From NCBI GenBank assembly GCA_001790855.1, contig MGDH01000016.1, forward strand, positions 1 through 64,000: DNA of 64,000 nt, in the 5' to 3' direction. This document shows, piece after piece, positions 23,711-64,000 of the stretch. The position numbers and the translations under genes were made by a program. Numbering within the stretch: position 1 is the first letter of the stretch; every line of letters starts with the position of its first letter. This DNA comes from Candidatus Schekmanbacteria bacterium RIFCSPLOWO2_02_FULL_38_14. Lineage in GTDB: Bacteria; Schekmanbacteria; GWA2-38-11. The notes beneath the pieces were generated by a model that saw only the letters and a list, made by a program, of their open reading frames with translations, made no database searches and had not been told where the DNA came from.

Positions 23711-24481
23711 TTATGATTTGCTTTTTACTTGCTTAAACATTGCTATTAAAACATGTCCCAAGAACATAGGTGATGAAACAAAATTTCGTTTCCACAATCG
23801 CCAAGGCTCTAGCATTAACCTTGGTAACCATTCTAATCCAAGATGTTGTAACCATACAGGTGCTCGCTTTTTTGTACCAGCAAAATAATCGAATGCTGCT
23901 CCAACTGCACCAATAAATGAAACGTTAAGCTTATCTTTATTATGATATATCCATTTTTCCTGTTTTGGAGCAGTCATGCCCACCCAAAGCACATCAGGTT
24001 TTGCATTGTTGATTGCCTCAATCATAAAGCTATTATCTTCTTTGCTAAAGTCTTCCTTAAAAGGGGGAGAATATGTCCCTGCAATTTTTATGTTTGGAAA
24101 AACAACCTTCATCCTATCTTTTATTTTTTCAAGAGTTTTCTCTGTTGAACCAAGAAAAAAATAACTATATTTTCTTTTTTTATTCAAAACATTACTGAGA
24201 CCTATAAAAACATCACTTCCTGTAATCCGATCATAAATATTCCCTCCTAATATTTTTGAAGCGATCACAATCCCAACTCCATCTGGTGTTACAAGGTCAG
24301 CATTTTCTATTGCCGCACTAAAATCAGAGTCATTTCTTGCAAGTTCCAATGAATGCGGATTAGCACAAATAAAATACTTGTGCTTTTCTATGTTTTCAAG
24401 CCATCTAAGAATTGTAGAAATGCATTCTGTTTTCGATAGCGTGGTAATATTATAATCAAGTATTGACTCATGTGTTTTCAT
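23711..24481 (-). CDS. WecG/TagA/CpsF family glycosyltransferase
   Basis: The 256-residue protein has the family motifs ICANPHSLELA, TPDGVGIVIASKI and WVGMTAPKQEKWI, plus FIGAVGAAFDYFAG near the C-terminus. Members transfer ManNAc-type or ManNAcA-type sugars (GT26) to lipid-linked acceptors on the inner face of the membrane. The donor in this organism cannot be read from the sequence. It is the last gene of the leftward glycan locus, 9 nt after the preceding GT4 gene. Confidence 0.88.
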   Translation of the reverse strand: MKTHESILDYNITTLSKTECISTILRWLENIEKHKYFICANPHSLELARNDSDFSAAIENADLVTPDGVGIVIASKILGGNIYDRITGSDVFIGLSNVLNKKRKYSYFFLGSTEKTLEKIKDRMKVVFPNIKIAGTYSPPFKEDFSKEDNSFMIEAINNAKPDVLWVGMTAPKQEKWIYHNKDKLNVSFIGAVGAAFDYFAGTKKRAPVWLQHLGLEWLPRLMLEPWRLWKRNFVSSPMFLGHVLIAMFKQVKSKS

Positions 24482-24490
24482 TTTTTCTCT

Positions 24491-25681
24491 CTATCTATTA
24501 TTTTCAATTGCTTTTTGATAAATGCCTATTAATATTTCAAAATTTTTCTCAAATGTATATTTCGCCTCAAACTCTGCACGAGCATTCTTACCCATCTCTA
24601 TAGATGCATTAGTATTGTCTAACATCCATTTTATCTTTAAAGCAAGGTCATCAGGATTACCTGGTTCAAAAAAAAGTCCAGTTTTTCCATCCTCTACAAT
24701 TTCCTCCATTACACCAAGTCGTGAGGCAATAATAGGCTTACCACATGCAAAAGCTTCAATAACTGGTTTGCCAAAAGTCTCATAACATTCTGAAGTAAAA
24801 AATAAAAACATAGAATTCTTTATATTTTCTATAACTTCTTCCCAAGGAAGATAACCACATATTTTAACATTTTCCAATTTATGTTTAATAATAAATTCTT
24901 CTATATCCTTTTTCAAAGAACCATCTCCTATTATTTTCAATACAATACCTTTTGAATCTATTTTCTTCCATGATTTCAATAGTGTCATTACTCCTTTTTC
25001 AGAAGTAAGTCTTCCAACAAAAAGTACAAATTTTTTAAAATTAAAATGAGGTTCTAAATTATTTTTGATAAAATTTGGTTTTACAAATATTTTCTCCGCT
25101 GGCAGGCTAGCCTTTATAAATTTTGATTTAGAAAACTCTGTTAAAATAATGAATGCATCTATTTTGGTATTCCATGTTCCTATAATTCTATGAAGATATT
25201 CCATAAAAGCCATCACTAGTGAAGAAGTTCTAGAATTTCTATAACAACCATTTAGAAAGGCATTATAAGGTATTCTCCCTATACAATCCTCACATGTCTT
25301 ACCATTTCTGAAAAGAAGACCATTCACACAAAATATTCTATAGTTGTGTAAAGTTTGAACTACAGGAATTCCAGCATCTTTACAGGCATAATAGGCCGAT
25401 GGTGAGATTGTGTAAAAAATGTTATGAAAATGACATAAATCTGGTTTTTCTTTTTTTATTATAGACTTAAGTTCTTTATAACTCTTTAAAGACCATACAA
25501 TATTGATTGGTAATTGTAATTTATTTTTAAACCTATAAGATAAAATTTCGTCATTATATTTTGTATATGTTATTACTTCTATCCCTTTTTTTTTCAAAAG
25601 TTCTAATTCATCTTTAAAGACAATATCTTCACCGCTTGGAGCTGTGGAAATATAGAAATTATGCACAAACAGTATTTTCAT
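24491..25681 (-). CDS. GT4-type glycosyltransferase
   Basis: This 396-residue GT-B protein has an N-terminal donor-independent domain (SGEDIVFKDELELLKKKGIEV), a Cys-containing loop of the type seen in Cap1E/WcaC-like enzymes (CVNGLLFRNGKTCEDCIG) and a C-terminal GT1 domain. The retaining-enzyme E-x7-E-like motif is readable as ETFGKPVIEAFACGKPII. The start overlaps the polymerase gene by 23 nt, so the two are translated together. Donor and acceptor are unknown. Confidence 0.88.
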   Translation of the reverse strand: MKILFVHNFYISTAPSGEDIVFKDELELLKKKGIEVITYTKYNDEILSYRFKNKLQLPINIVWSLKSYKELKSIIKKEKPDLCHFHNIFYTISPSAYYACKDAGIPVVQTLHNYRIFCVNGLLFRNGKTCEDCIGRIPYNAFLNGCYRNSRTSSLVMAFMEYLHRIIGTWNTKIDAFIILTEFSKSKFIKASLPAEKIFVKPNFIKNNLEPHFNFKKFVLFVGRLTSEKGVMTLLKSWKKIDSKGIVLKIIGDGSLKKDIEEFIIKHKLENVKICGYLPWEEVIENIKNSMFLFFTSECYETFGKPVIEAFACGKPIIASRLGVMEEIVEDGKTGLFFEPGNPDDLALKIKWMLDNTNASIEMGKNARAEFEAKYTFEKNFEILIGIYQKAIENNR

Positions 25682-27032
25682 TTGTTGACCTTTTCACAAA
25701 TGTTTTGGAATACAAATTTTTTCTATATTTTGCAAAATATGTAAAATAAGTATACAGAACACCCAAATAATACCAGAATACCACACTAGTTGCTCGACTG
25801 TCGAGCGTAGGATTAAACAATGAATCAAAAATTATAAGCATCAAAATAAGTATCACAATATTGAGAGAAACATTTTTTTTGCCATTGCTTTTTTCTATGC
25901 TCTTGTTCAAAAAATGAATCTTGAATATTCCATAAACAATTGTAAGATATGCTATCATAAGAAGCATACCACCTTGTAATAAAAACGAAATAATTTGACT
26001 TTCACTGCCAGGGTTTAAACCGCCGAGGGAGGCAGCACTGGTATAAGCTCCCAAACCATCACCTTGAAAAAGGTGTTCTGGAATCATTTCACCCCAGAAC
26101 ATAACCCTTGCCCCTAACGACGCTGAAAAAAGCATTCTGCGCAAATAGCTGCTTTTTACCCCACCCATCATAAACTCATCTAGTTCATTTAATAAAACAG
26201 GATTAAAATATATAAGAAAAAATATGCACAAAATGACACCCGTCAACACCATCAAACGTTTTTTGTTTATAATATACTTTATTACAATAATTGCTATCAT
26301 TAATCCCACCAATGACCCTCTCGAACCTACCAGTATAAGTGCTCCTATCAAACAAACATATATTATCCATTTAATAGGCACTTTGAGAAATGTACCGTTG
26401 TAGTAATATACGAAAAATATCCCAATAATAAAATATATCGCCGCTTCCCTGAGACCAGAAAAAATCGATATATATCTGTAAACACCCATATCAGCAAAAT
26501 AGTTACCTCCTATAGTTGCATAACCACTACTTAGCCATGCCTTCTCAAAAGAGAAATAATTGTTCACCCGCTGAAGAAAAATATAAACAGTCCCAATAAT
26601 AACAACTAAAAATATAAAATTGGAAAATTTATCTTTAAAAAAATCATAGTCATAATTGTTTTTCAGGACTGTTTCTTTACCAAAAAAGTAGAAAAAAATA
26701 TAAATTACAAATATCTTAATATAAGCTATTGAAACCAATACATTTGACAGAAAAATTACGCCTGAAACAAATAATGAAAATAAAAAAAAGAATATTTTCT
26801 TATTTATAAAAAACAGGTGTTTACTTTTACATATTATATAAAACAGCAAGAAAAAATCTGGAATTAGAAGCAAAGTATTATATAGAATACCCGGATCGCC
26901 ACCAATAAACAAAAACCTTTTAAAGAAATTTGACAATATTATTAATGCCGCAAGGAAAATCAAATAGCTTCTAAAAAGAATGCCAAATAAAGATGCAATA
27001 GACATATACAAACTAAAAATCAAAAAAAACAT
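25659..27032 (-). CDS. Multi-pass O-antigen polymerase/ligase-like protein (Wzy/WaaL type)
   Basis: The strongly hydrophobic protein of about 457 residues has 11-12 predicted membrane segments and a large periplasmic loop before the C-terminal helices, as in Wzy/WaaL proteins. A GSRGSLVGL motif near the middle matches the O-antigen ligase/polymerase family (PF04932-like). I prefer ATG 27032. The upstream ATG at 27047 lies inside a sequence that looks like the terminal repeat of an IS element (see 27034-27309), so the residues MGGTP would be IS-derived. With a flippase at 47874 it supports Wzx/Wzy-type export. Confidence 0.78.
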   Translation of the reverse strand: MFFLIFSLYMSIASLFGILFRSYLIFLAALIILSNFFKRFLFIGGDPGILYNTLLLIPDFFLLFYIICKSKHLFFINKKIFFFLFSLFVSGVIFLSNVLVSIAYIKIFVIYIFFYFFGKETVLKNNYDYDFFKDKFSNFIFLVVIIGTVYIFLQRVNNYFSFEKAWLSSGYATIGGNYFADMGVYRYISIFSGLREAAIYFIIGIFFVYYYNGTFLKVPIKWIIYVCLIGALILVGSRGSLVGLMIAIIVIKYIINKKRLMVLTGVILCIFFLIYFNPVLLNELDEFMMGGVKSSYLRRMLFSASLGARVMFWGEMIPEHLFQGDGLGAYTSAASLGGLNPGSESQIISFLLQGGMLLMIAYLTIVYGIFKIHFLNKSIEKSNGKKNVSLNIVILILMLIIFDSLFNPTLDSRATSVVFWYYLGVLYTYFTYFAKYRKNLYSKTFVKRSTNENTVCA

Positions 27033-27033
27033 T

Positions 27034-27058
27034 GGAGTGCCCCCCATCGGTTAGACAC
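27034..27058 (-). mobile_element. Candidate IS terminal sequence
   Basis: Read on the minus strand, this segment begins TGTCTAACCGATGGGGGG and follows directly on the tail of the transposase remnant. That is where the right terminal repeat of an IS3/IS481-like element would be. The opposite end is not found. Confidence 0.45.
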
Positions 27059-27309: not shown

Positions 27310-27332
27310 TCTACGTATTAACGAATGGCAAT

Positions 27333-28388
27333 TTACATACGAGCGCCGACAACTATAAACTCTTCCATTTGTTTATCCCCCAATCCCCAATTATCACCAT
27401 TATAAACATATGAACGCCGACCTTCCACCATATCGATGATTAAATTTTTAACATAATCCTTCTGTGTATAAACAATATTGGCTTTATCCAAATAGCTTTT
27501 TGATGGGATAAACTTACACCCCACTCCAGCCAAAATCTCCACTAAATGGTATGGTAGTTTTAACTTATTAAGAACTTTTTTCAAAAACACATATGAAGGC
27601 TTTTTCCATTTTGAATCATGATCAATATGATACAAACTTAAAGGCTTCTTAAAAACATACTGCTTTGCGCCTGATAAATGTGCCATGTATAGGAGCAGAT
27701 CATCTGCTCCAGGGCTTATCCCTTCAGGAAAACCATGGATTAAATGCCACCTCTCCCTAGAAAACAGCATAAAATCACCTGGAGCCTTGTCATGAAGAAT
27801 GGGAATTTTTCTCTTTAACAAAAATTCAAATGGACCTGGAGTATACATATCAATAATGTTTTGTTCACAGTATTTTAACTGCTCATCAATCGTTGTGATA
27901 TCTAAAACCCTTCTATTCACATCACATCGATCTATACGATACATTTTATCTTTTTCGAGTTTTTTGTTCGCAAAAAAATCAACTAGTTCTTCTGACAATA
28001 AAATGTCTATTACCGTAGACAGTATAAACTCACCTCTTGCCCTTCTGATTCCAACATTCCATGGAGTCAAATCGCGAATACTATAATCTTCAGACCAGTC
28101 ATAGTTCCCAACTGTAGATGAAGGAACAACAACTGTGCGAACCCTACAATAACCTAATTTAGAAGGCCATGAATATATATCCTTTATTAAGGGCCTACCA
28201 TTAGGAGGAATCCATTCTACAAGTATCAATTCAGATGATATTTTCTTTCTCTCCATTTGAGAAATAATGCCATCTATGCACACCTGCATCCTACGATACA
28301 TATTAGCACTATGATTGTCGTTTCTAGATACAATTACGATACTTAAATAAGGATTGTCCTGTAATTGATTCTTTTCCGCTCCATGCAT
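27333..28388 (-). CDS. GT2-like glycosyltransferase domain protein
   Basis: The 351-residue protein starts with a GT-A-like strand (LSIVIVSRNDN) and continues with features of family 2 proteins: PWNVGIRRARGEFIL near residues 110-125 and DKAPGDFMLFSRERWHLIHG near 210. I do not see a clean DXD metal motif, so activity and donor are uncertain. It overlaps nothing and lies 4 nt downstream of the HddC-like gene. The IS remnant follows its stop directly, so the transcript may be interrupted here. Confidence 0.65.
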   Translation of the reverse strand: MHGAEKNQLQDNPYLSIVIVSRNDNHSANMYRRMQVCIDGIISQMERKKISSELILVEWIPPNGRPLIKDIYSWPSKLGYCRVRTVVVPSSTVGNYDWSEDYSIRDLTPWNVGIRRARGEFILSTVIDILLSEELVDFFANKKLEKDKMYRIDRCDVNRRVLDITTIDEQLKYCEQNIIDMYTPGPFEFLLKRKIPILHDKAPGDFMLFSRERWHLIHGFPEGISPGADDLLLYMAHLSGAKQYVFKKPLSLYHIDHDSKWKKPSYVFLKKVLNKLKLPYHLVEILAGVGCKFIPSKSYLDKANIVYTQKDYVKNLIIDMVEGRRSYVYNGDNWGLGDKQMEEFIVVGARM

Positions 28389-28392
28389 AAAT

Positions 28393-29106
28393 TCACTTCT
28401 TACATATAGAATGTGTTTCTAAAAAATCTTTTGCTTGTTTATACCTTTTTGGGGTGCCTATATCAATCAATCTCTCTCTGGTATAAAAACCATAGATACA
28501 CTGCCCTACAAGTTTAGGGAAAATATCATTTTCAAGCGAACACTTTATACCTGAAGGTATTGCAGATAGAATACTCCTGTCAAAGAGATAAATGCCAGCA
28601 CTAACCAGCTTCCCGCTGCCGTCCATTTTTTCATTAAATTTGACAATTCTACCCAAATCATCAAGAACTATAGATCCAAAATCTCTCGCGTTTTGAATTT
28701 CGGTAACCACTATGGATAAATGGGACTTCTTTTTTATATGAAAATCAACAAAATTTGCCAGATCAACATGACAAAAGGAGTCTCCATTTATAATCAAAAA
28801 TGGACTAGATCTTATAAATTTATCAGCATTTTTTATTGCACCCGCAGTACCAAGAGGTGTCTTTTCTTCTGAAAAAACCAATTCAAATGAATGCTCTTTA
28901 TCATTGTAATAATCTTTTACATAATCTGTCATATAGCCGGTGCAAAGGATGAAACGCTTAAAACCATAGGAGGATATATATTCAACTAATATATCAAGTA
29001 AAGGTCTGCCATTAATCTCAGCCATCGGTTTAGGTCTATCGTTTACAACTTTTTTTAAACGTGTACCCTCACCACCAATTAAAATCAAAGCGTCAATGTC
29101 TTTCAT
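28393..29106 (-). CDS. hddC: Sugar-1-phosphate nucleotidyltransferase, HddC-like (heptose-1-P guanylyltransferase candidate)
   Basis: The 237-residue nucleotidyltransferase has the N-terminal loop GGEGTRL with Lys-Pro-Met (RPKPM) at residues 11-28, and INGDSF, the metal-binding Asp block. It adjoins an HddA-like kinase. In several species HddA and HddC convert D-glycero-D-manno-heptose-7-phosphate to GDP-heptose (the phosphatase GmhB acts between). The assignment relies on this pairing; a closely related RmlA/GCD1-type NTP transferase with another sugar is possible. Confidence 0.72.
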   Translation of the reverse strand: MKDIDALILIGGEGTRLKKVVNDRPKPMAEINGRPLLDILVEYISSYGFKRFILCTGYMTDYVKDYYNDKEHSFELVFSEEKTPLGTAGAIKNADKFIRSSPFLIINGDSFCHVDLANFVDFHIKKKSHLSIVVTEIQNARDFGSIVLDDLGRIVKFNEKMDGSGKLVSAGIYLFDRSILSAIPSGIKCSLENDIFPKLVGQCIYGFYTRERLIDIGTPKRYKQAKDFLETHSICKK

Positions 29107-29113
29107 GTGTAAA

Positions 29114-30112
29114 TTAATAGAAATCTTGTGTGGAATATAAAACCACTTGGCTCCCTAACTTTTCAAAACCTAAAGGAACATATATAAGATTTTTTAATTT
29201 TTCCTTTATATGGTTGTGATATTCAGGCTTGGCAAATAAAAGTATAAAACCACCGCCTCCAGCACCAAGCAGTTTACCACCTAAGGCACCTGCTTTTATT
29301 GAAACCTCATAAATTTCATCTATCCTGCCGTTAGTTATTAAACTGGTAAGATTTTTCTTTATAATCCATGATTCATGAAGTAGTTTGCCAAAATCAGTGA
29401 GATCATTTGAATCACGGTCAAGAATACTAATGGCTTCACCCACCATTTGCTTCATTGCACTTAATTCAGATATTTTGTTGTTGAGTTGTTTTATCTGTTC
29501 GACAGCAATGTTAGATGCATTCCTTGAAAATCCAGTAAAGAATAATAGGAGATGAGATTGAAGTATATCTATTTTTTCCTGTTGAATAGTAATGGGATAA
29601 ACATAAAATTCCTCTTCTCCGCCAAATTCAATTTTGTTAAAGCCCCCGAACGTCGTAGCCACCTGATCCTGTGAACCCACATTTTCTTTGATTAATTTTT
29701 GCTCCACATGAATCGCATCTGAAGCCAACTGTCTTTTGGTTATAATTTTTCCTTTTAGAGCGTAGAGCGCGTTTAGCAATCCCACAGTAAAAGATGAGCT
29801 GGAACCTATTCCTGAACGTGCAGGGACATCGCTTGTATGTACTATTTCCACGCCTCTATCAATCCCCATAAATCTCAAACACTCACGAACCGCAGGATGT
29901 TTTATTTCGTCAATACTTTGAGTCTCCTCACGTATTCTATACCTGATTAAATTTTTATAATCGAAAAAAGGTGGAAGATATCTACAACTAATGTAGCAGT
30001 ATTTATTAAATGTCGTGCTAAGAACAACACCTCCATGTCCTTTATACCAACCTGGATAATCCGTCCCACCACCAAAAAATGAAATACGAAACGGCGTTCT
30101 TGTAATAATCAT
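29114..30112 (-). CDS. hddA: GHMP kinase, HddA-like (D-glycero-D-manno-heptose-7-phosphate kinase candidate)
   Basis: The 332-residue GHMP kinase begins with ITRTPFRISFFGGGTDYP, typical of HddA and fucokinase-type kinases. It has the ATP-binding motif PARSGIGSSSSFTVG at residues 97-111 and the C-terminal GALGGKLLGAGGGGF loop. HddA phosphorylates heptose-7-phosphate at C1. It precedes the HddC-like gene by 7 nt. The isomerase GmhA and phosphatase GmhB, needed for the same path, are not in the window. Confidence 0.78.
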   Translation of the reverse strand: MIITRTPFRISFFGGGTDYPGWYKGHGGVVLSTTFNKYCYISCRYLPPFFDYKNLIRYRIREETQSIDEIKHPAVRECLRFMGIDRGVEIVHTSDVPARSGIGSSSSFTVGLLNALYALKGKIITKRQLASDAIHVEQKLIKENVGSQDQVATTFGGFNKIEFGGEEEFYVYPITIQQEKIDILQSHLLLFFTGFSRNASNIAVEQIKQLNNKISELSAMKQMVGEAISILDRDSNDLTDFGKLLHESWIIKKNLTSLITNGRIDEIYEVSIKAGALGGKLLGAGGGGFILLFAKPEYHNHIKEKLKNLIYVPLGFEKLGSQVVLYSTQDFY

Positions 30113-30130
30113 ATAAGAAACCTCTTGTAA

Positions 30131-31057
30131 TCAATAATTAGTTGCATCAGCTTGCCTTAAATGCCACTTCGAAAAATTATAAATATAATTGAATTCAGGT
30201 TTTAAAACCTTAACACAAAAATAAGATTCATATTCACCTTCTCTAAAACCGATTTCTTCGACCACTTTACGAACCATCGTTCCCGGAACGGCCCATGTTG
30301 TAATTTTATTTGCTCCCAGTTCTTTCAGATGCCAACATGCCCCAATAAAAAGCCTCTTTAATTTCCTGCTATCTTTCAACGAGCATTCAAAATCAACAAT
30401 ATCTCCGTAAGACGTCTTTGTAACAGGGTCTACGAACTTTTTTATAATTGCAAACTCACCAGTATCAATCGTGACAATTGAATATGAATACATTGGATTT
30501 AGAGCATAACGCCAAAAACGATATTTTTGCGAATCTTGAAAAATTATTATGCTATCCTGCTGCTTTTTGATCTCCGGGAAAACAGTCTTCTTTGTCACAG
30601 ATTCGCATTTTGTTCCATTATTTACAATATCAGCCAAATAATCAAGAATTAATATTCGCAATGCACCGATTGTTTTAAAACCAAATGAGCGTTCACAGGG
30701 CAATTTTGCCCTCTTATTGGCAAAAATACACAATACGTCCAAATCATTGAAGTTGCCGATTGCTGCTTGCCCTAATCTAGTAAAATGGCCTTTTTCTCTC
30801 CAACGTGGTGCAATATTTAAGTGGTTTGCCTGCCCGCATATTAAATTATGCGTCAGTTTCCTTTTTTGTATCCCAAATATACCCACCAGCTCATTACCGC
30901 AAAAACCACACATCAAAACTACAGGAATCACTGTTTCAAAACATTGCCAAGTCCAAAATTCCTTTGGCCTTTTAATTTTATACATTGTACTGAGCAATGA
31001 ATATATTACTGGAATATCTTCAGGTGTCGCTCGTCTGTAAATTATATTATCACTCAT
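30131..31057 (-). CDS. GNAT-fold acetyltransferase-like protein
   Basis: The 308-residue protein opens with a GNAT-like strand-helix start (IIYRRATPEDIPVIYSLLS) and has a central stretch LNIAPRWREKGHFTRLGQAA placed like an acyl-CoA-binding loop. The C-terminal ~150 residues may form a second, degenerate acetyltransferase-like half. It overlaps the RmlC-like gene by 4 nt. Acylation of an amino or hydroxy sugar is plausible from context, but the substrate is not visible. Confidence 0.55.
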   Translation of the reverse strand: MSDNIIYRRATPEDIPVIYSLLSTMYKIKRPKEFWTWQCFETVIPVVLMCGFCGNELVGIFGIQKRKLTHNLICGQANHLNIAPRWREKGHFTRLGQAAIGNFNDLDVLCIFANKRAKLPCERSFGFKTIGALRILILDYLADIVNNGTKCESVTKKTVFPEIKKQQDSIIIFQDSQKYRFWRYALNPMYSYSIVTIDTGEFAIIKKFVDPVTKTSYGDIVDFECSLKDSRKLKRLFIGACWHLKELGANKITTWAVPGTMVRKVVEEIGFREGEYESYFCVKVLKPEFNYIYNFSKWHLRQADATNY

Positions 31058-31572
31058 TTAACGAAATCACCACGCTCATCTCGCATAGACAATATAGGAT
31101 TTTTGATAGGCCACCAAATGTTAAATCTTGGATCATTCCATTTGATTGTAAATTGTCTTGATGGATCATAATAATGAGACTGTTTATAATGAAAAATGGA
31201 CTTTTCACTCAAACAGAGATGACCATTGCCATGTTTGGGTGGCACAAGTACCTGATGTTTATTAACATCAGACAATACAAAAGACTGCCATTTACCATAA
31301 TTATTTGAAAATTCATCATAGTTGATGACCATTAAATAAAATTTGCCATGCAGACATGAAATTAGCTTCCACGTTCGGTCATCCCCATGCACGCCCTTTA
31401 ATACTCCTCTTGTAGCAATCGAGATGTCATCTTCAACAAAGTCTATATCTATCCCTTTAGATTTGTACAATTCTTTACTATATATCTCAAAATATTCCCC
31501 CCTATGATCTTCAAAAAAAGTAGGTTTAATTAACAAAACACCACTTAGATATGTCTCGCACACTTCAATCAT
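31054..31572 (-). CDS. RmlC-like sugar 3,5-epimerase (cupin)
   Basis: The 172-residue protein is a dTDP-4-dehydrorhamnose 3,5-epimerase-family cupin: PTFFEDHRGEYFEIYS, then TRGVLKGVHGDD with the His of the active-site region, and PPKHGNGHLCLS. Since no rmlA/rmlD set is here and HddA/HddC-like genes adjoin, the likely analogy is to the GDP-heptose epimerases of Campylobacter (Cj1430-type) rather than to rhamnose synthesis. That is an inference. Start and stop overlap both neighbours by 4 nt. Confidence 0.75.
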   Translation of the reverse strand: MIEVCETYLSGVLLIKPTFFEDHRGEYFEIYSKELYKSKGIDIDFVEDDISIATRGVLKGVHGDDRTWKLISCLHGKFYLMVINYDEFSNNYGKWQSFVLSDVNKHQVLVPPKHGNGHLCLSEKSIFHYKQSHYYDPSRQFTIKWNDPRFNIWWPIKNPILSMRDERGDFVK

Positions 31573-56654: not shown

Positions 56655-57335
56655 CTACCCTTTGTTCCCTACTCCAATAGCCAATAAATAGTGGGCCATT
56701 GGGAAGAATCCAGTATGCACAACTTCATCATTCATAGAAAAAATAAAAACATTTTCAAAAAATGATGCCATTAACTTTTTAAGACTTTCTCCACTCTTTA
56801 AGTTTATGTGACCAATAGCACTTTCTGAAGAAGCATATTGCTGAGAATTAATATTGGGAGTACCAATAATAAAAATGGCATCTGGTTTTAATGAATCACT
56901 AATATTTGTCATAAACTTTTGCTCAAGATTAGGCGGGATGTGTTCAATAACATCCAAAGCAAAAGCACCATCATATTTTTTTTTCAATGGTCTTGTCGTA
57001 ATATCTAAAACCTCATAAGTACAATTCGCTCCATATTCTACTCTTTTGACATTATCTTCAATTACAAGAGGTTCAATATCAATACCATGTACACTACCGA
57101 CAGTTTGCAATACAATAGCAGTTCCCAAAGAATCCCCGCAACCGACCTCTAACACTTCCTCTTTGCCTGCTAATATTTTTGCACAAAACTTATAACGTGA
57201 AAGTAAAAAACACAAATGTCTTGGATCATTTCTCCATATATGACTGGTATATGGTCCTAAGACAACACCACCTTTGTTATAATATGTATCAAATTGAATT
57301 TGGTTTTGAGGTTCATTGGCTATTCTTCCTGACAT
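56655..57335 (-). CDS. Class I SAM-dependent methyltransferase (Methyltransf_11-type)
   Basis: The 226-residue protein has the SAM motif VLEVGCGDSLGTAIVL, IDIEPLVIEDN and FALDVIEHIPP, a typical small-molecule methyltransferase pattern. It lies 11 nt after the transketolase pair B, in a clear translational series. The acceptor is unknown. Confidence 0.8.
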   Translation of the reverse strand: MSGRIANEPQNQIQFDTYYNKGGVVLGPYTSHIWRNDPRHLCFLLSRYKFCAKILAGKEEVLEVGCGDSLGTAIVLQTVGSVHGIDIEPLVIEDNVKRVEYGANCTYEVLDITTRPLKKKYDGAFALDVIEHIPPNLEQKFMTNISDSLKPDAIFIIGTPNINSQQYASSESAIGHINLKSGESLKKLMASFFENVFIFSMNDEVVHTGFFPMAHYLLAIGVGNKG

Positions 57336-57345
57336 AAAATTTTCC

Positions 57346-58278
57346 TCACATATGTTTTTTAAAATTATTTTGTATAACTCTTATTATCCCATCTGATGAA
57401 AGACCCGCCTGTGAACAGAGTTCCTCGTAAGTGCCATAGTCATGCATAAACGAATCAATGGCAATTGAGCTAAACTGCATACCTTTAATATTATAAACTC
57501 CCTGTAAAATATCATGCCCCAATCCACCAAAACGATTGTGCTCCTCTACTACAAGAACTTTTTTAGTCTTCTCAACACTTTCATATATTAATGGTAAGTC
57601 CAAAGGCAATATAGTATGAACATAAATTATCTCAACATCCCATCCCTTGCCTGAAAGTTTATTTCTTGCTTCTATAGCATTTTTAAGCTGTGGCCCTGTA
57701 GCAACAAGAGTAATATCTTTTCCTTCAGTAATTTTAATAGCCTTGCCAAATTTTATTAAAAAAGGATCTATTAATTGCTCATGCTGAACCTCAGGTATTC
57801 TAAACAAGGTTAAATAGCTGTTGTTGTATGTTTGCTTGAAAAGTATATCAAATTCAGCACATGAGCTAGGATATACAACCTGTGTATTAGGAAGAGATTT
57901 AATCAATGCAAAATCATCATAACAATGATGTGTACATCCGAGGTTTGAATAATCAAATGCACTCCCAACTGATATAAGATTTCCGTTCAGCTTTTGATAA
58001 CAAAAATCTAACTTAATTTGCTCAAATGATCTCTCAAGAATAAATGGCGCAATTGTATGCACAACAGGATAAAAACCGGTTTTTGCAAGTCCGGCTGCCA
58101 TACTGACAATAGTTGGTTCACATATTCCCACATTATAAAATCTGCCGGGGCAAGCTTTTGCAAATGGCTGTAAAATAAAATGGCTAATATCACCTATCAA
58201 AACTACCAAGTTGGGATCGCTTTGCCCTACTTCCAACATTGTATCTGCAAACTGTTGCCGTATTTTTTTTAGCTTCAA
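57346..58278 (-). CDS. Transketolase-like C-terminal subunit (ThDP enzyme, pair B)
   Basis: The 310-residue protein has Glu54 in VGICEPTIVSMAAGL, VHTIAPFILERSFEQIKLD and the C-terminal domain with VVEEHNRFGGLG. It corresponds closely to the gene at 37041. Its N-terminal partner overlaps it by 4 nt at 58275-59048. A C2-ketol transfer reaction on a sugar is inferred. Confidence 0.85.
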   Translation of the reverse strand: MKLKKIRQQFADTMLEVGQSDPNLVVLIGDISHFILQPFAKACPGRFYNVGICEPTIVSMAAGLAKTGFYPVVHTIAPFILERSFEQIKLDFCYQKLNGNLISVGSAFDYSNLGCTHHCYDDFALIKSLPNTQVVYPSSCAEFDILFKQTYNNSYLTLFRIPEVQHEQLIDPFLIKFGKAIKITEGKDITLVATGPQLKNAIEARNKLSGKGWDVEIIYVHTILPLDLPLIYESVEKTKKVLVVEEHNRFGGLGHDILQGVYNIKGMQFSSIAIDSFMHDYGTYEELCSQAGLSSDGIIRVIQNNFKKHM

Positions 58279-59048
58279 GAGAGTGCCTCCATAATTATTT
58301 TATATTCATCTTCATTTGGAATCTTGTGGTGCCATATCCCATGCCCTTCAAGCATAGGAACACCCTTTCCCTTAATGGTCTTTGCAATTATCACGATTGG
58401 TGCACCATTAACACAAAAATTTATATTTGATAAGGCAGATTTGATCTCTGCTTCCGAATGCCCATCTATTACAATTGTGGTCCAGCCAAATGCCTTCCAT
58501 TTCGAAGGAAAATCATCACGAGGCATTAACTGTGCGGCAGAACCGTTCCAGTCCACCATAACACATAGATTTCCTAACTGAAGATTATTTGCAACATTAG
58601 CAGCTTCCCAAATAGTGCCTTCATGACACTCTCCATCTCCAACAAGAACAAACACTCTGTTAGATTTGCCACGAATACGAAGTCCTAAAGCAATGCCAAC
58701 AGCAAAAGAAAAACCGTGGCCAAGAGAACCTGTAGATGCCTCGATTCCCGGAATTTTGGTGCAATCAGGATGCTCACCCAATATCCCTCCTGGTTTGCAA
58801 AACATATTAAGGTCATCTTCTGTAATAAACCCACAACTTTTAAGGACTACATACAGAGCAAGACACCCATGACCTTTACTTAAAATAAAATAATCACGAT
58901 CTTCCCAATCAGGATTTTCAGGATCAAATCTAAGATAGTTTTTGTATAAAATGGCTATTATATCAACAATAGAAAATGCACTTGGAATATGACCATCCTT
59001 TCCCTTTCTAACCATTTCAACAATCCGTTTGCGATATTCCTCATGCAT
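58275..59048 (-). CDS. Transketolase-like N-terminal subunit (ThDP-binding, pair B)
   Basis: The 257 residues carry SKGHGCLALY, EASTGSLGHGFSFAVG and the ThDP motif Gly137-Asp138-Gly139 with Asn168 (VDWNG). It is a close relative of the subunit at 37903. Its start is 29 nt downstream of an SDR stop. The two copies differ in the loop after the ThDP motif (YDNN versus VDWN), which may reflect different acceptors. Confidence 0.88.
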   Translation of the reverse strand: MHEEYRKRIVEMVRKGKDGHIPSAFSIVDIIAILYKNYLRFDPENPDWEDRDYFILSKGHGCLALYVVLKSCGFITEDDLNMFCKPGGILGEHPDCTKIPGIEASTGSLGHGFSFAVGIALGLRIRGKSNRVFVLVGDGECHEGTIWEAANVANNLQLGNLCVMVDWNGSAAQLMPRDDFPSKWKAFGWTTIVIDGHSEAEIKSALSNINFCVNGAPIVIIAKTIKGKGVPMLEGHGIWHHKIPNEDEYKIIMEALS

Positions 59049-59077
59049 CTATCTTCCCCCTTGCAAGTTTAATTAAG

Positions 59078-59854
59078 CTATTGCCCAAAATAACCTCTTC
59101 CCTGTCCTCCATCTATAGGAATAATGCTTCCCGTATTAAAAGAAGCTAATTCAGAACAAAGAAATGTGACAAAGTTTCCAATTTCTTCAGGTTGACCAAA
59201 ACGCCCAATGCGCTGCCTTTCAGTCAGAAATTTTTTGACATGTTCAGGATTTTCTTTTAAGGTTATATCCCAATATCCCTTCTCTGTGAAAACCGCACCT
59301 GGAAGCACGGCAGAAACTACGACTCCATCTGGAGCAACGACACCGCCAAAACTTCTTGTATACGCTGTCAAGGCAGCTTTTATTGCACAATAAGTTACAG
59401 GGCCATGGTTTTCCATCGAAGAAATAGAAGAAATGTGAACTACACGCCCCCACTTCTTTTTTTGCATATTTGGAACAAGAAGTATGTTTAATTCTACTGC
59501 AACTTCAAAATTGAAACGATATATACGTCTCCAATCCTGAATAGAACAAAAAGGATCCTTTATATCAAGTGTACCACCAAGATTATGTACCAATATAGAT
59601 GGCTTTCCAAAGTCCTTATTAAGTATTTTAACAAGTTCTGCAGGACCGGTATCATCGGTCAGGTCAAGTGTTATTCCTAAATGTCCCTTAACTTTTCCAC
59701 CTATTTCATCTATCAAGCTTTCTACATCAGCAGAAGTCCTTGAAACAACGGCAACACGCGATCCTTCCCTTGCAAGACATTGTGCTATAGCCCGCCCAAT
59801 ACCACGACCTCCGCCAGTTACTAAAGCTAACCGGCCAAAAATTCCTAAATTCAA
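59078..59854 (-). CDS. Classical SDR (3-oxoacyl-reductase-like)
   Basis: The 258-residue protein has TGGGRGIGRAIAQ, HNLGG, HISSISSM and the canonical catalytic YCAIK, plus a C-terminal IDGGQG. It would reduce or oxidise a sugar or acyl intermediate. It lies between the C-methyltransferase-like gene and the transketolase pair B. Confidence 0.82.
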   Translation of the reverse strand: MNLGIFGRLALVTGGGRGIGRAIAQCLAREGSRVAVVSRTSADVESLIDEIGGKVKGHLGITLDLTDDTGPAELVKILNKDFGKPSILVHNLGGTLDIKDPFCSIQDWRRIYRFNFEVAVELNILLVPNMQKKKWGRVVHISSISSMENHGPVTYCAIKAALTAYTRSFGGVVAPDGVVVSAVLPGAVFTEKGYWDITLKENPEHVKKFLTERQRIGRFGQPEEIGNFVTFLCSELASFNTGSIIPIDGGQGRGYFGQ

Positions 59855-59870
59855 AATAATCTCCTTAATA

Positions 59871-61073
59871 TCAAATTATATGTAAAGGATAGATAATATG
59901 CTTAGGTCTGAATGCAAATAGTTTAGTCATTATAGGTTTAATATTATCAATCGCAGTAACAAAAATAGTTAACCCATTAGTATTTTCAATTTTATTTGAA
60001 TGTTGAACTTGAACCGGAAGGTTAGCATAAAACAAATCATCTTTTTCTTTGTCATCATCAATGACTGCTTTCAAAAACGAAAGGTCAGTTTTTAAATGAT
60101 ATGCTAAAACCGGAAGCATCAGAGCAGCACCATACCCGTATATATGGGTGTTCTTGAATTCAAATAATATTTTTCTCGTATTATCCATTTGGCTGAAAAA
60201 CAGGTTTCTCTTGCGTTCAATATCTTCTTTTGCAAAAGGGAATTTAAAGCGTTTTTGTTTTGAAGTCTTTTTTCTAAAAGCAACAATTAAAGCACCCCAA
60301 TTGTGATAATTTTCAGTAAAACCTATTAACTCAGCTCCGCATTTTTCTAAAAGAACACTGAGCGAGCTTAAACTAAAGTATTGTAAATGTTCATGAAAAA
60401 CCTGATCAAACCTTCCTTTTGTTATCAAAGATTCAAATCCTGGCATTTCAAAAAGGAAAAGTGTATTTGCGGTGGAACAATCAATCAGTTTTTTTAAAAC
60501 AGTTTGAGGGTCAAAAATATGTTCAAGAGTATGCCTGCACACAATTAGATCAGGCTTACAGGGAAGGGCTTTTTCTAAATCAATGTCTTCAAGTGCCCCT
60601 CCTATAACGTGTAAATTTTGGTCATCATTATCTGGTTTTTTTGAAGTCCATATAGGATCAATTCCTATCCTTGTCTTTCCAAAGGATTTCATTTTATTTA
60701 GTAAATATAAATCATTACATCCCACATCAATAATGCACTCAATTTTTTTGTTTGGAATAAGAGTTTTTAAATAATCAAGAAATATTTCAGTCCCATGTTG
60801 CGCGGTTGTACTTAAAGAAGTTCTGAAAGTATATTTCTGAGAATCATAAAGTATTTCAGGATTAATCTGATTTCGAAGTTGACCATGTCCGCATTCCGGA
60901 CACCATAACAAAGCTTGATCAAACCCTTCTGAAAAATCAGCATGCTTTTTTTTTGAAAACAAACCAGTAATTGGCAATTCCGGCATACTCATAATCTCAA
61001 TGAGATTTTCATTATTGCAAACTGCACACCACGATCTTTTACATACAATTATATCTTCATGCTTTATGGACAT
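59871..61073 (-). CDS. Sugar C-methyltransferase-like protein (zinc-binding/SAM type)
   Basis: The 400-residue product from ATG 61073 has an N-terminal zinc-type Cys set (CAVC, then CPECG) as in Methyltransf_13 proteins. A SAM fold follows with VGCNDLYLLNKM and CRHTLEHIFDP, then a C-terminal domain (IYGYGAALMLPVLAYHL) like the C-terminal domain of NDP-sugar C-methyltransferases. The frame is open to 61277, but that lies within the neighbouring gene, so 61073 is the better start. It overlaps the epimerase at 61057 by 17 nt. C-methylation of a deoxysugar is a plausible role. Confidence 0.8.
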   Translation of the reverse strand: MSIKHEDIIVCKRSWCAVCNNENLIEIMSMPELPITGLFSKKKHADFSEGFDQALLWCPECGHGQLRNQINPEILYDSQKYTFRTSLSTTAQHGTEIFLDYLKTLIPNKKIECIIDVGCNDLYLLNKMKSFGKTRIGIDPIWTSKKPDNDDQNLHVIGGALEDIDLEKALPCKPDLIVCRHTLEHIFDPQTVLKKLIDCSTANTLFLFEMPGFESLITKGRFDQVFHEHLQYFSLSSLSVLLEKCGAELIGFTENYHNWGALIVAFRKKTSKQKRFKFPFAKEDIERKRNLFFSQMDNTRKILFEFKNTHIYGYGAALMLPVLAYHLKTDLSFLKAVIDDDKEKDDLFYANLPVQVQHSNKIENTNGLTIFVTAIDNIKPIMTKLFAFRPKHIIYPLHII

Positions 61074-62055
61074 AATCGAGCGGCTCCTTTTTAATCTGCT
61101 CCCAATCATTCTCAACCCATTTGACAACGCCAGCCAAACCCTCTTCCATAGAGATAGTTGGTTTCCATTCAAATTCTTTTCTCGCTTTACCAGAATCAAT
61201 AACATAGGCAGCATCCTGCCCAAGCCTCTCAGCAACTGTTTTTGTTGCCTTATTAAAATCGAGTCCCATTTTTTCACAAATAATACGCACTACATCCCTT
61301 ACAGCAATCCCTTGATCCGGAGACAGGTGGTAGATTTCACCTGTTCTTCCTTTTTCCATCGCAGCAAGTTCCCCGATTGAAATATCTCTTATATGGATAT
61401 AAGACTTGACTGCTTTGCCACCACCGTGAAGCTCAATAATCTTTCCTAACTTTAAATAAATTGCTGACCTTGGAATAATTTTAAATAATTGCTGGTGCGC
61501 ACCATATACATTGGTAGAACGGATCATTACCATTGGAAATCCAAAGTTCTTCACAAAAGTAAAAAGTGACAAATCCCCTGCAGCCTTAGATGCTGCATAA
61601 GGAGTACTGGAATTTAGCGGAGCGTCTTCTTTTACAATTCCTACGCAGGTGCCATATACTTCAGGAGAAGAAATATGAACATACCGTCTAAGAAATTTAC
61701 GGTCTTTTAAAGCGTGTGCTAATTCAGTAATTGAAACTGCATTTGTTTGAAACCACTGGCCAGGATTTTCCCAACTCGGAGCTACCTCGCTTTGTGCAGC
61801 AAAATTCACTACAAAGTCGGGTTTAAAAGAATCAACCAGATTGATAACCTGAGACATACCTTTATTCAAATCCATCTTATAAAATTTAAAGTCCGGGTTC
61901 TTGCTCTTCTTGTAAGGTAAAAACAAAGCACTTTTCTCCGGTGACCTGCTGATACCTGCAACCGAGTATCCTCCCTTTTCCAGCAACAAATCTATAAAAT
62001 CGCTACCCGAAAAAGAGTTACTGCCTATTACTATAACTTTCTGTTTACTTTGCAT
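61057..62055 (-). CDS. RmlB-like NDP-sugar 4,6-dehydratase/epimerase
   Basis: The 332-residue extended SDR has GSNSFSGSDFIDLLL, a Ser block ISSPEVYG and the canonical catalytic YAASK. The C-terminal ERLGQDAAYVIDSGKARKEF resembles RmlB. The Thr-Asp-Glu triad of dehydratases reads Ser-Pro-Glu here, so whether it dehydrates is uncertain. The gene has a 107-nt gap before it, which contains a hairpin, and may begin a new unit. Confidence 0.8.
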   Translation of the reverse strand: MQSKQKVIVIGSNSFSGSDFIDLLLEKGGYSVAGISRSPEKSALFLPYKKSKNPDFKFYKMDLNKGMSQVINLVDSFKPDFVVNFAAQSEVAPSWENPGQWFQTNAVSITELAHALKDRKFLRRYVHISSPEVYGTCVGIVKEDAPLNSSTPYAASKAAGDLSLFTFVKNFGFPMVMIRSTNVYGAHQQLFKIIPRSAIYLKLGKIIELHGGGKAVKSYIHIRDISIGELAAMEKGRTGEIYHLSPDQGIAVRDVVRIICEKMGLDFNKATKTVAERLGQDAAYVIDSGKARKEFEWKPTISMEEGLAGVVKWVENDWEQIKKEPLDYVHKA

Positions 62056-62087
62056 TATTCACCTTGGTACTCTTGAACATTAGAAGT

Positions 62088-62132
62088 GAGGTAATAAGAA
62101 ATGGGAACCCATTTCTCACTTCCCATTACCTC
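62088..62132. repeat. Complex imperfect inverted repeat
   Basis: The outer arms GAGGTAAT (62088-62095) and ATTACCTC (62125-62132) flank an inner pair GAAATGGG (62098-62105) and CCCATTTC (62108-62115) around an AA centre. It lies in the gap between the E1-beta-like gene and the RmlB-like gene. It may act as an attenuating hairpin or a small repeat. Confidence 0.5.
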
Positions 62133-62161
62133 ATTTCAATATAGCCTATATGGAGCATTTT

Positions 62162-63220
62162 TTAAAAAGGACCGGTAAATGATCTGTCCGGAACATCCAG
62201 AGGGGTATCATGAAAAATTCCGAGTTCTTCTTCACTCCGCAAGGGAAGTCCAAACATCTTTCCGGCTGCATTGACAATATCAACAGATTTAGGATAATAA
62301 TGATTTGCCAGTGCCCAACTTGTTGGAGTTGGAACGTCCGGAAATGTCACACGGGAAGGAGCAGATTTCAGATAGCTATGCGCCTTTTCACATACAAATG
62401 CTATTATTTCGGCAGAAACACCAAAGCTGCGCCATGCACCATCTACTACCAAAAGATGGCCAGTTCTCCTAACAGAGTCTAAAATTAATTCTTCGTCCAT
62501 GGGTTTAATCGTTCTCAAATCTATAACGTCGGAGTTGATTCCGCCTTTGGCAAGAATATCTGCTGCTTTTAATGCCTCTAAAGACATGTACGATGAAGCA
62601 ACGATTGTTATTGAATTCCCTTCTCGCATTTTTTTTGCTTTGCCTATAGGAACGCGATACATCTCCTCTGGAACATGACCAAATATATTATGCAACCAGC
62701 GGTGTTCGAGATAAATAACCGGGTTATCATCTTCAATTGCTGCTATCAATAAACCTTTAGCATCATATGGCGTAGTCGGCATCACAACCTTCAACCCGGG
62801 AATATGCGCAAAAATAGACTGCAGGCTCTGCGAGTGCTGTGGCCCCTGACCCCAACCCCTCCCAATAATCAAACGGATTACCAAAGGTACTTTCATCTTT
62901 CCACCAAACATATAGTGCCATTTTGCTGCATTATTGATGATTTGATCCAATGATAAGAGCATAAAATCAATACGCTGGTGGGTAATAATTGGCCGCATCC
63001 CTACCAGAGATGAACCTATCGCAACCCCTGTCATTCCATTCTCTGCAACGGGCATATCCATTACCCTTTTACTGCCAAACTTTTTTTCAAGACCAATGGT
63101 GGTTCCAAATATTCCTTTGGGATCAGTAACACCAAGGCCCATAATATAGACAGAAGGGGCATTTTCCAGACACTGGCTTGTGGCCTCAAGAATTGCCTGT
63201 GCGTAATTAAGTTCCCGCAT
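62162..63220 (-). CDS. E1-beta-like subunit of a ThDP-dependent dehydrogenase or acyl-transferring enzyme
   Basis: The 352 residues have the pyrimidine-binding domain with the cofactor-activating Glu60 (MPVAENGMTG), the block RGWGQGPQHSQS and a C-terminal transketolase domain. This resembles the beta subunit of pyruvate or acetoin dehydrogenase E1, or AviB-type proteins for sugar branches. Its start overlaps the alpha subunit stop as TAATG (one shared base). No E2/E3 genes are visible in the window. Confidence 0.82.
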   Translation of the reverse strand: MRELNYAQAILEATSQCLENAPSVYIMGLGVTDPKGIFGTTIGLEKKFGSKRVMDMPVAENGMTGVAIGSSLVGMRPIITHQRIDFMLLSLDQIINNAAKWHYMFGGKMKVPLVIRLIIGRGWGQGPQHSQSLQSIFAHIPGLKVVMPTTPYDAKGLLIAAIEDDNPVIYLEHRWLHNIFGHVPEEMYRVPIGKAKKMREGNSITIVASSYMSLEALKAADILAKGGINSDVIDLRTIKPMDEELILDSVRRTGHLLVVDGAWRSFGVSAEIIAFVCEKAHSYLKSAPSRVTFPDVPTPTSWALANHYYPKSVDIVNAAGKMFGLPLRSEEELGIFHDTPLDVPDRSFTGPF

Positions 63221-64000
63221 TATCTTAATTCGTCCCCAGCATAAACATCAGAATAAATTTGATTAATCTCAGGGAAAGGGCTCTCCTTAGCAAAATTAAT
63301 CGCCGCATCAATTTCCGATCTAATCTTTTGCCTGAACTCTTTAATCTGCTGCTGAAGAAGAATTCCCTCCTGAAGTAAACGCTTTTCAAAGTTTTCCACA
63401 GGGCATTTCTGGTACCATTCCATAAACTCTTCTTCCGACCGATAGCCCAAATTATTATCATAATTAGGTCCGCAGTGCTCGCGAAACCTATATGTATCAA
63501 ACTCAATAAAGGAGGGCCCTAAACATTTGCGGGCATGTTCAATGGCTTTCCCAGCAATATGATCTACTACCTCTACATCATTACCATCCCCCTTTTCACT
63601 GTATATACCAAATGCCCTTGCAATAGATAAATTATCACGTTCTTCTGGCTGACGAACTGAAAGCGGCGAATATACAGAATAAAAGTTGTTCTCACAAACA
63701 AAAACAACCGGCAATTTTTTCAAGGCAGCAAAGTTTAAACTCTCACAAAACACCCCTTCCTCTGTAGCGGCGTCTCCCAAAAAAACAACTGTAACTCTAT
63801 TTTCTCCTTTCATAACTGTTCCAAAAGCAACTCCTACAGCAACCGGAATAATTCCTCCTACTATAGGGGTCGATCCCAAATAATTTACTTCAAGATCTAC
63901 AAGATGCATAGAACCTCCTTTGCCTTTTGTACAACCAGTGGCTTTGCCTAATATTTCCGCCATCATCGCTCTAAGACTGCCTCCTTTGGCAAGAAAGTGG
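63220..64000 (-). CDS. E1-alpha-like subunit (partial, N-terminus beyond right edge)
   Basis: The open frame runs to the window edge: HFLAKGGSLRAMMAEILGKA with GCTKGKGGSMHLVD next. The ThDP motif is GDAATEEG with an Asn-Asn block (VCENNFYS). This is the usual pattern of E1 alpha (pyruvate/acetoin dehydrogenase type, OXPP family). It is the upstream partner of the beta-like gene at 62162. The start codon is outside the window. Confidence 0.85.
   Translation of the reverse strand, partial: HFLAKGGSLRAMMAEILGKATGCTKGKGGSMHLVDLEVNYLGSTPIVGGIIPVAVGVAFGTVMKGENRVTVVFLGDAATEEGVFCESLNFAALKKLPVVFVCENNFYSVYSPLSVRQPEERDNLSIARAFGIYSEKGDGNDVEVVDHIAGKAIEHARKCLGPSFIEFDTYRFREHCGPNYDNNLGYRSEEEFMEWYQKCPVENFEKRLLQEGILLQQQIKEFRQKIRSEIDAAINFAKESPFPEINQIYSDVYAGDELR

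Follow-up and report, generated by a model that had tools for sequence, protein, structure and literature searches.

Gene content of the locus

The window analyzed in this work comprises the opening 64,000 bases of the 71,181-base contig C16 of Candidatus Schekmanbacteria bacterium RIFCSPLOWO2_02_FULL_38_14, whose 2.68-Mb genome is 99% complete. Its part between positions 23711 and 64000 holds a putative glycan locus with three pairs of genes for thiamine diphosphate (ThDP)-dependent enzymes, i.e., an E1 alpha/beta pair (62162-64167) and two split transketolases (TKs) named TK2 (57346-59048) and TK1 (37041-38685), each encoded as an N-terminal (TK-N) and a C-terminal (TK-C) subunit. The locus is composed of two independent, widely shared cassettes, A (51.5-65.3 kb) and B (28.4-41.4 kb). 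Its 39 open reading frames, exclusively on the minus strand (-), are listed below (aa, amino acids; SDR, short-chain dehydrogenase; SAM, S-adenosylmethionine; GT, glycosyltransferase; TK residues in Escherichia coli numbering, assigned by alignment).

g01, 63220..64000 (-): E1 alpha subunit, cassette A, 327 aa; start beyond the window (contig ~64167-64200); PF00676, 1e-50
g02, 62162..63220 (-): E1 beta subunit, cassette A, candidate carboligase type; PF02779/PF02780, tree, no E2 nearby
g03, 61057..62055 (-): extended SDR, dTDP-glucose-4,6-dehydratase-like; TIGR01181, 190 bits; 42% identity to Bradyrhizobium gdh
g04, 59871..61074 (-): methyltransferase with zinc-binding domain (C-methyltransferase type); PF08421, PF13489
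g05, 59078..59854 (-): SDR adjoining TK2; PF13561; in 16/20 A loci
g06, 58275..59048 (-): TK2 N-terminal subunit; PF00456, 6e-42
g07, 57346..58278 (-): TK2 C-terminal subunit; H461G, S385F, D469L; PF02779/PF02780
g08, 56655..57335 (-): methyltransferase; PF13489; in 10/20 A loci
g09, 55588..56643 (-): GT9-like (heptosyltransferase-fold) glycosyltransferase candidate; 29% to g17
g10, 54801..55685 (-): SDR; PF13561
g11, 53801..54604 (-): SDR; PF13561
g12, 53124..53780 (-): methyltransferase, homologue of the bradyrhizose-operon methyltransferase; PF08241; 50% to the Bradyrhizobium protein
g13, 52632..53078 (-): Nudix hydrolase; PF00293
g14, 51536..52582 (-): zinc alcohol dehydrogenase (ADH), homologue of the bradyrhizose-operon ADH; PF00107; 46%
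g15, 49367..51466 (-): B12-binding radical SAM protein; PF04055, PF02310
g16, 47874..49316 (-): Wzx-like flippase; NF041503, 65 bits, under cut-off
g17, 46587..47816 (-): GT9-like (heptosyltransferase-fold) glycosyltransferase candidate; AlphaFold model, Z 17.4/16.8 to GT9 and WaaF
g18, 45035..46423 (-): B12-binding radical SAM protein; PF04055 and B12-binding domain
g19, 44288..45010 (-): GT2 glycosyltransferase; PF00535
g20, 42694..44271 (-): polytopic membrane protein, GT39-like candidate; by eye, no Pfam match
g21, 41487..42635 (-): polysialyltransferase-like candidate; PF07388, weak, 20.6 bits
g22, 40446..41438 (-): GDP-heptose 4,6-dehydratase-like, cassette B; top PDB match 7us5, 6.9e-79
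g23, 39437..40456 (-): NAD-dependent epimerase/reductase (GDP-fucose synthase-like); Pfam and NCBIfam; in 18/35 B loci
g24, 38682..39449 (-): methyltransferase (TylF-like), well conserved by TK1; in 29/35 B loci, median 71%
g25, 37903..38685 (-): TK1 N-terminal subunit; PF00456, 1.7e-33
g26, 37041..37931 (-): TK1 C-terminal subunit; H461G, S385Y, D469 kept; PF02779
g27, 35385..36932 (-): B12-binding radical SAM protein; PF04055 and B12-binding domain
g28, 34402..35361 (-): NAD-dependent epimerase/reductase; in 29/35 B loci
g29, 33863..34375 (-): 170-aa remnant, shortened by an in-frame internal deletion; L083 homologue 362 aa
g30, 32620..33798 (-): MiaB-like radical SAM protein, MiaB/RimO-type; TIGR00089, 194 bits, under cut-off
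g31, 31569..32567 (-): NAD-dependent epimerase/reductase (GDP-fucose synthase-like); in 18/35 B loci
g32, 31054..31572 (-): RmlC-type 3,5-epimerase; matches include GDP-4-keto-heptose epimerases
g33, 30131..31057 (-): GNAT-like protein; no Pfam match; 34-41% homologues in four B loci
g34, 29114..30112 (-): HddA-type heptose kinase; top PDB matches are HddA-type kinases
g35, 28393..29106 (-): HddC/mannose-1-P-type guanylyltransferase; profile scores
g36, 27333..28388 (-): GT2-like candidate; by eye, no family match
g37, 25659..27047 (-): Wzy-like polymerase; PF04932, 22 bits, under cut-off
g38, 24491..25681 (-): GT4 glycosyltransferase; PF00534
g39, 23711..24481 (-): WecG/TagA glycosyltransferase; PF03808, 2e-60

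The one-strand, tight packing described in the original prediction was confirmed (96% coding), as were the two TK pairs and the E1 pair, all three recognized by their Pfam domains, the four radical SAM proteins (PF04055; g15, g18, and g27 with a B12-binding domain, g30 MiaB-like) and several methyltransferases (g04, g08, g12, and g24, the last by weak Pfam scores). The Wzx/Wzy-type genes stand on matches to both models, i.e., NCBIfam WZX_like for g16 and, weakly, Wzy_C for g37, each under its cut-off. Approximately eight glycosyltransferase candidates, as predicted, are plausible: g19, g38, and g39 are clear by Pfam, and g09 and g17, without any Pfam or NCBIfam family match, probably have the GT9 heptosyltransferase-like fold, as judged from the g17 model, which gives five supported proteins, with g20, g21, and g36 as further candidates. 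Among the 39 window genes, neither a match to full-length decarboxylase-type ThDP enzymes (PF02776, YerE-like) nor a NeuB-like gene was found. The g29 remnant lacks, in frame, the middle part of its 362-aa Desulfospira homologue (L083).

The left flank of the locus (1-23.6 kb) carries, for the most part, ordinary cell genes. On the other side, the locus extends 7 kb beyond the window, as far as the contig itself (71,181), with seven further minus-strand genes, encoding an isomerase-like TIM barrel protein, two SDRs, a GSU2086-family protein (u4, NF052581), two HldE-type cytidylyltransferases (u6, which is fused to a PfkB kinase and resembles HldE, and u5 as the second one), and a C4-dehydrogenase-like SDR (u7). 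The GSU2086-family protein (L007, 3286-4308), encoded upstream in this heptose locus, is weakly similar to deoxyhypusine synthase.

The genome has its own split TK (contig C18), DXS (C22), and two E1 pairs (C4), each of the latter adjoining E2 genes. This rules out that the three ThDP pairs are displaced housekeeping genes, i.e., central-metabolism enzymes whose orthologues are missing elsewhere in the genome, which the original prediction had named as one of the outcomes that would overturn it.

Distribution of the two cassettes

All window genes were mapped onto 72 loci obtained by scanning genome contigs with TK C-subunits; the counts of cassette genes per locus are lower bounds, since some contigs are short. 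Cassette A (E1 alpha/beta, TK2, a Cj1427-like C4-dehydrogenase, the dTDP-glucose-dehydratase-like SDR, ADH, and methyltransferases) occurs without cassette B in 20 other genomes, and cassette B (putative GDP-heptose pathway genes and the TK1 pair) occurs without cassette A in 35, across many phyla. In the 20 A loci, defined by TK2 (g06/g07), E1 alpha/beta were found in 15-16, g05 in 16, g12 in 14, g03 and g14 in 12 each, and u7 and g08 in 10 each, and the core genes of cassette B were missing, save for one locus with kinase and nucleotidyltransferase genes. The 35 B loci, defined by TK1 (g25/g26), contained g24 and g28 (29 each), g22 (25), g32 (24), g34 (22), g23 and g31 (18 each), and g35 (14). 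Thus, E1 beta is present in 16/20 A loci vs. 0/35 B loci, and g24 in 29/35 B loci vs. 0/20 A loci. The closest colinear relative (L043) shares nine cassette-A genes at 54-85% identity.

In the tree of TK C-subunits, TK2 and TK1 form two supported clades (SH-aLRT 95 and 99), which group with an actinobacterial group, away from housekeeping TKs, including the organism's own enzyme. By the taxa named in record titles, mostly of metagenome-assembled genome (MAG) contigs, TK2 spans 8 phyla and TK1 spans 11, one of them archaeal. Culturable hosts are Pseudoalteromonas luteoviolacea HI1 for cassette A and Desulfospira joergensenii for cassette B. As the TK matches in the genomes nearest to the source genome are just 27-28% identical to TK2, both cassettes were probably gained by horizontal transfer. 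The separate distributions of the cassettes do not support the single unusual sugar originally proposed, and point instead to probably two. As to the suggested co-occurrence of both TK pairs with radical SAM genes, the TK pairs distribute separately, and the radical SAM genes are not conserved partners.

Some of the loci deserve separate mention. Cassette B, with its best genes at 63-77% identity, lies on a Methanoperedens (archaeal) MAG contig (L097), which reflects cross-domain transfer or misbinning. In Lindowbacteria (G032; L036, L168, L169), TK1 stands immediately before a NeuB-like gene, and within 60 kb there are a second TK by a u7-like gene and an E1 pair by a u7-like gene. Five Pelagibacteraceae loci (L109, L110, L111, L112, and L114) encode a split TK whose C-subunit of ~160 aa consists of the pyrimidine-binding domain without the C-terminal domain, with a u7-like dehydrogenase nearby in 4/5 cases.

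Some radical SAM gene lies near 20/35 TK1 loci and 6/20 TK2 loci vs. 0/12 other split-TK loci, an association that may reflect context, since these 12 controls are not all glycan loci. Orthologues at 46% identity or more were found in just six other loci, i.e., of g30 in four B loci (46-56%), of g15 in one A locus (51%), and of g18 in another (65%). No orthologous set is common to the loci, so the radical SAM genes were rejected as core partners and, judging by their distribution, are best seen as variable tailoring accessories. The g30 homologues (L066, L067, L090, and L097, all cassette B loci; 392-399 aa) share three N-terminal cysteines and the CxxxCxxC motif in 5/5 proteins; no C-terminal TRAM domain was detected in g30 by Pfam, and this protein may act on a sugar instead of tRNA.

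Properties and proposed role of the ThDP enzymes

The ThDP genes are all full length, with cofactor and catalytic residues intact. Taking the roles of catalytic, cofactor, and sugar-phosphate residues from established TK structures, we found that Glu411, Asp381, His473, Arg358, and the GDG motif are kept in the TK1 and TK2 rows of the alignment, as are His26, His66, His100, Asp155, and Glu160 of the N-subunit. The sugar-phosphate ligand His461 is replaced by Gly in 55/55 TK1 and TK2 rows, and Ser385 by Tyr/Phe in TK1 and by Phe/Gly/Tyr in TK2; both ligands are present in the genome's own TK. The two families differ at Asp469, which is kept in 34/34 TK1 rows and is Leu in 21/21 TK2 rows. Among loci of at least 6 kb, Asp469 is kept in 23/23 with a g22-like 4,6-dehydratase and lost in 19/19 with only a u7-like dehydrogenase, a split spanning few clades (TK1 vs. 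TK2, Bradyrhizobium, and the Pelagibacter group), so that the Fisher value overstates its support.

The partner genes point to heptoses. The top solved-structure match of g22, g34, and u7 is a heptose enzyme, and heptose enzymes are among the best matches of g32. In the case of u7, this is 6vo6/6vo8, which we take to be Campylobacter Cj1427. The latter enzyme is the C4-dehydrogenase of GDP-heptose (PMC10680097). Furthermore, g35 scores to HddC and to mannose-1-P guanylyltransferases, cassette A includes an HldE-like kinase/cytidylyltransferase, and a GmhA-like SIS isomerase is present in 9/20 A loci. Cassette B therefore looks like a GDP-heptose pathway, and cassette A also looks heptose-based. 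The model of g17 (pLDDT 72) matches GT9 at Z 17 vs. 12 for the next fold, which fits the heptose reading, though fold is not function. Heptoses, which the original prediction did not mention, are thus the most likely substrates, as judged from sequence comparisons.

Given that the ThDP pairs lie in conserved nucleotide-sugar cassettes, the best reading of their role is branching of keto-sugars; this part of the predicted ThDP carbon-carbon chemistry with radical tailoring is supported, while the radical SAM genes, shared with only six other loci, failed as conserved partners. Most likely, the TKs would add hydroxyacetyl groups to nucleotide-linked 4-keto-heptoses, and the E1 pair would add an acetyl group. 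For the locus as a whole, we consider it probable that it directs the synthesis of a Wzx/Wzy-type surface glycan with two unusual heptose-derived sugars, each from its own horizontally spread cassette, and we infer the following substrates, donors, and order of steps. In cassette B, HddA/HddC-type enzymes would yield GDP-heptose, the GMD-like dehydratase would convert it into a 6-deoxy-4-keto intermediate, to be processed by the epimerase and reductases, and TK1 would move a two-carbon hydroxyacetyl unit onto the keto carbon, giving a tertiary alcohol and, as the product, a branched 6-deoxy-heptose. In cassette A, the HldE-type kinase/nucleotidyltransferase would activate the heptose, the Cj1427-like dehydrogenase would form the 4-ketone, TK2 would give the hydroxyacetyl branch, E1 alpha/beta, without E2/E3, would give a further acetyl-type branch from pyruvate, and the SDRs, zinc ADH, and methyltransferases would complete the sugar.

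Since sedoheptulose 7-phosphate is the entry compound of heptose pathways (PMC10680097) and both cassettes look heptose-based, the TK pairs might instead be dedicated suppliers of this compound to both pathways, with no branching involved. This is unlikely, as neither clade retains the sugar-phosphate ligands H461 and S385, a housekeeping split TK is already present in the genome, the TKs never accompany other pentose-phosphate genes in the loci read, and residue 469 tracks the type of the nearby ketone-forming enzyme. Similarly unlikely is an extension of free or phosphorylated aldehydes into higher ketoses, e.g., nonulosonic acid precursors, again without ketone branching. It would suit the Lindowbacteria genome in which a NeuB-like synthase gene comes after that of the TK1 C-subunit, and plasmid pDCAR1, with its NeuB-family and acylneuraminate cytidylyltransferase genes; such neighbors are, however, exceptional, TK1 as a rule occurs with GDP-heptose genes, and the window genes, as stated above, include no NeuB-like one.

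With its complete E1 alpha and beta domains and 42-47% identity to one of the genome's own pyruvate dehydrogenase (PDH)-type pairs, the E1 pair could be regarded as an ordinary 2-oxoacid dehydrogenase or acetoin-cleaving E1 present here by chance. We consider this quite improbable: no E2 gene was found in the 20 A loci (E3 was not searched for), compared with 14/29 short E1 loci from other genomes, E1 beta falls outside the PDH-type clade, grouped with pairs from glycan and antibiotic clusters (just one Streptomyces cluster pair lies within the same wider group), and E1 is linked to TK2 in 16/20 loci. Finally, the clear g29 remnant indicates some decay, as would be expected if the locus made one common O-antigen and the ThDP genes were decaying passengers, but their full length, intact residues, and conservation over many phyla make this very improbable.

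On an Azospirillum oryzae plasmid (L132), E1 alpha/beta accompany a u7-like dehydrogenase (64%), a PfkB kinase, a SIS isomerase, two aminotransferases, and a radical SAM gene, with no TK annotated; its product is possibly an acetyl-branched, transaminated heptose.

Relationship to the bradyrhizose operon and other known systems

Bradyrhizose, a rare bicyclic monosaccharide of ten carbons, is the sole sugar of one Bradyrhizobium O-antigen (PMC9912281). Disruption of gdh, which belongs to a cluster of eleven genes of photosynthetic Bradyrhizobium situated 40 kb from rfaL, abolishes it (PMC4743980, Busset et al.). A TK of another clade was detected in five of 146 Bradyrhizobium genomes, and in the four that were read it is part of an operon (L128-L131). 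In this operon, the sites of both published gdh primers fall within a g03-like gene, separated by 380 bp and with 1-3 mismatches, and the rfaL primer matches at 39 and 42 kb (G208 and G128) vs. the published 40 kb. The operon comprises eleven co-directional genes, TK-N and TK-C among them, which encode the following proteins:

cytidylyltransferase-PfkB kinase; nucleotidyltransferase; u7-like dehydrogenase; SIS isomerase; gdh (42% to g03); TK-N (42% to g06)
TK-C (33-35% to g07); ADH (46% to g14); HAD phosphatase; APH-like kinase; methyltransferase (50% to g12)

Six cassette-A homologues, at 25-50% identity, were recognized in this operon, i.e., the HldE-like kinase/cytidylyltransferase and Cj1427-like 4-dehydrogenase (whose cassette-A counterparts sit just beyond the window end), the gdh-like SDR, split TK, zinc ADH, and methyltransferase; the SIS isomerase, HAD phosphatase, and APH-like kinase are not in this window. 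The Bradyrhizobium TK shows both H461G and D469L. By the primer matches, the distance to rfaL, and this gene content, a TK pair is thus part of the operon that bradyrhizose requires; cassette A is homologous to this operon and has additional genes.

Two other candidates were rejected. TK1 as the bradyrhizose TK occurs in just 3/146 Bradyrhizobium genomes, those read being without reaction-centre genes, and the operon's TK belongs to another clade. Reaction-centre genes as an operon marker are present in 13/146 genomes, only 2 of which have the operon, and three operon genomes are without them. At the catalytic motif, g03 has SPEVYG and gdh (L128-L130) TPEVYG, with Pro at the acidic position of dehydratases, where dTDP-glucose dehydratases carry the catalytic Asp; because of this replacement, gdh may not be a dehydratase.

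No biosynthetic scheme for bradyrhizose was found in the literature. In this sugar, ring closure from C1 can involve the hydroxyl of C4, C5, or C9 (PMC9912281), which suggests that C4 is a tertiary alcohol, attached to C3, C5, and C9, and that C4-C9 make up the carbocycle. The ten carbons may be accounted for by the heptose (C7), the TK-derived unit (C2), and one methyl (C1): hydroxyacetyl transferred to the C4 ketone would supply C9 and C8, and the methyl C10. As the gene content suggests, aldol addition of C8 to the C7 aldehyde, which the ADH could make, would then close the fused six-carbon ring. It is possible, and we propose it only tentatively, that cassette A makes bradyrhizose-type sugars in this manner, turning a heptose into a fused bicyclic carbasugar through a TK-derived hydroxyacetyl branch at C4 and an intramolecular aldol reaction to C7.

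Several observations weigh against the proposed pathways. R358 and R520 are retained in the TKs, so some phosphate binding may remain. The scores fall below the NCBIfam equivalog cut-offs for HddA, HddC, and HldE, and GmhA-like genes lie elsewhere in the genome, being adjacent in only 2/35 B loci. Concerning bradyrhizose, the authors of the gdh study allow for polar effects of the mutants and assume that the operon makes this sugar (PMC4743980), the Bradyrhizobium TK and TK2 form separate clades, the operon has no E1 alpha/beta, g04, g05, or radical SAM gene, and the carbon bookkeeping rests on a review.

The Campylobacter jejuni GDP-heptose pathways (PMC10680097, PMC7949155) have likely counterparts in the locus for their heptose kinase, guanylyltransferase, 4,6-dehydratase, RmlC-type epimerase, C4-reductases, and the Cj1427 C4-dehydrogenase, and transketolase goes unmentioned in the review of these pathways (PMC10680097). 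YerE of yersiniose synthesis likewise performs ThDP-dependent two-carbon branching of a nucleotide keto-sugar, but it is a single-chain decarboxylase-type enzyme. The alpha-KADH2 group (AviB1/B2, Pau11/12, and KbDH) consists of E1 alpha/beta-type pairs thought to add a pyruvate-derived acetyl group to a keto-sugar (PMC12247030, PMC4753412); these are known from actinobacterial antibiotics, whereas here E1 occurs in surface-glycan loci beside a TK pair. Hydroxyacetyl addition to a keto-sugar was proposed for the uncharacterised split TKs of miharamycin/amipurimycin and 13 Streptomyces clusters (PMC12247030), in contrast to which the present enzymes belong to two different clades that span 8 and 11 phyla and accompany heptose genes. 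The pDCAR1 glycan cluster of Solidesulfovibrio carbinolicus also has two split TK pairs, radical SAM genes, and methyltransferases, but it differs in its nonulosonate genes and TK clades. Multi-ThDP loci were found in Magnetovibrio, an Omnitrophota MAG, Lindowbacteria, and on this plasmid; the combination, for which no described locus had been known to the original prediction, recurs in Magnetovibrio, the Omnitrophota MAG, and the Solidesulfovibrio plasmid, and is not unique to this genome. Within the literature collection searched, no TK described from O-antigen loci was found.

ThDP-dependent branching of keto-sugars by YerE and alpha-KADH2 pairs is therefore known, and branching by TKs was only proposed before; according to a 2025 review, no transketolase was shown to branch a ketone, and the candidates came from Streptomyces only (PMC12247030). 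The new findings are that two large, separate TK families occur in surface-glycan loci from many phyla, that they are tied to likely 4-keto-heptose enzymes, and that the bradyrhizose operon encodes a TK. These families bear a clear active-site signature, and their likely acceptors are accessible with known Campylobacter enzymes. For bradyrhizose, of whose genes only one operon was known, the analysis offers a scheme that is concrete and can be tested. If cassette A does make such sugars, bradyrhizose-type carbasugar chemistry would span at least 8 bacterial phyla, and if the proposed pathways are right, branched and carbocyclic sugars would be made by a route not described before, in which transketolase serves a new purpose.

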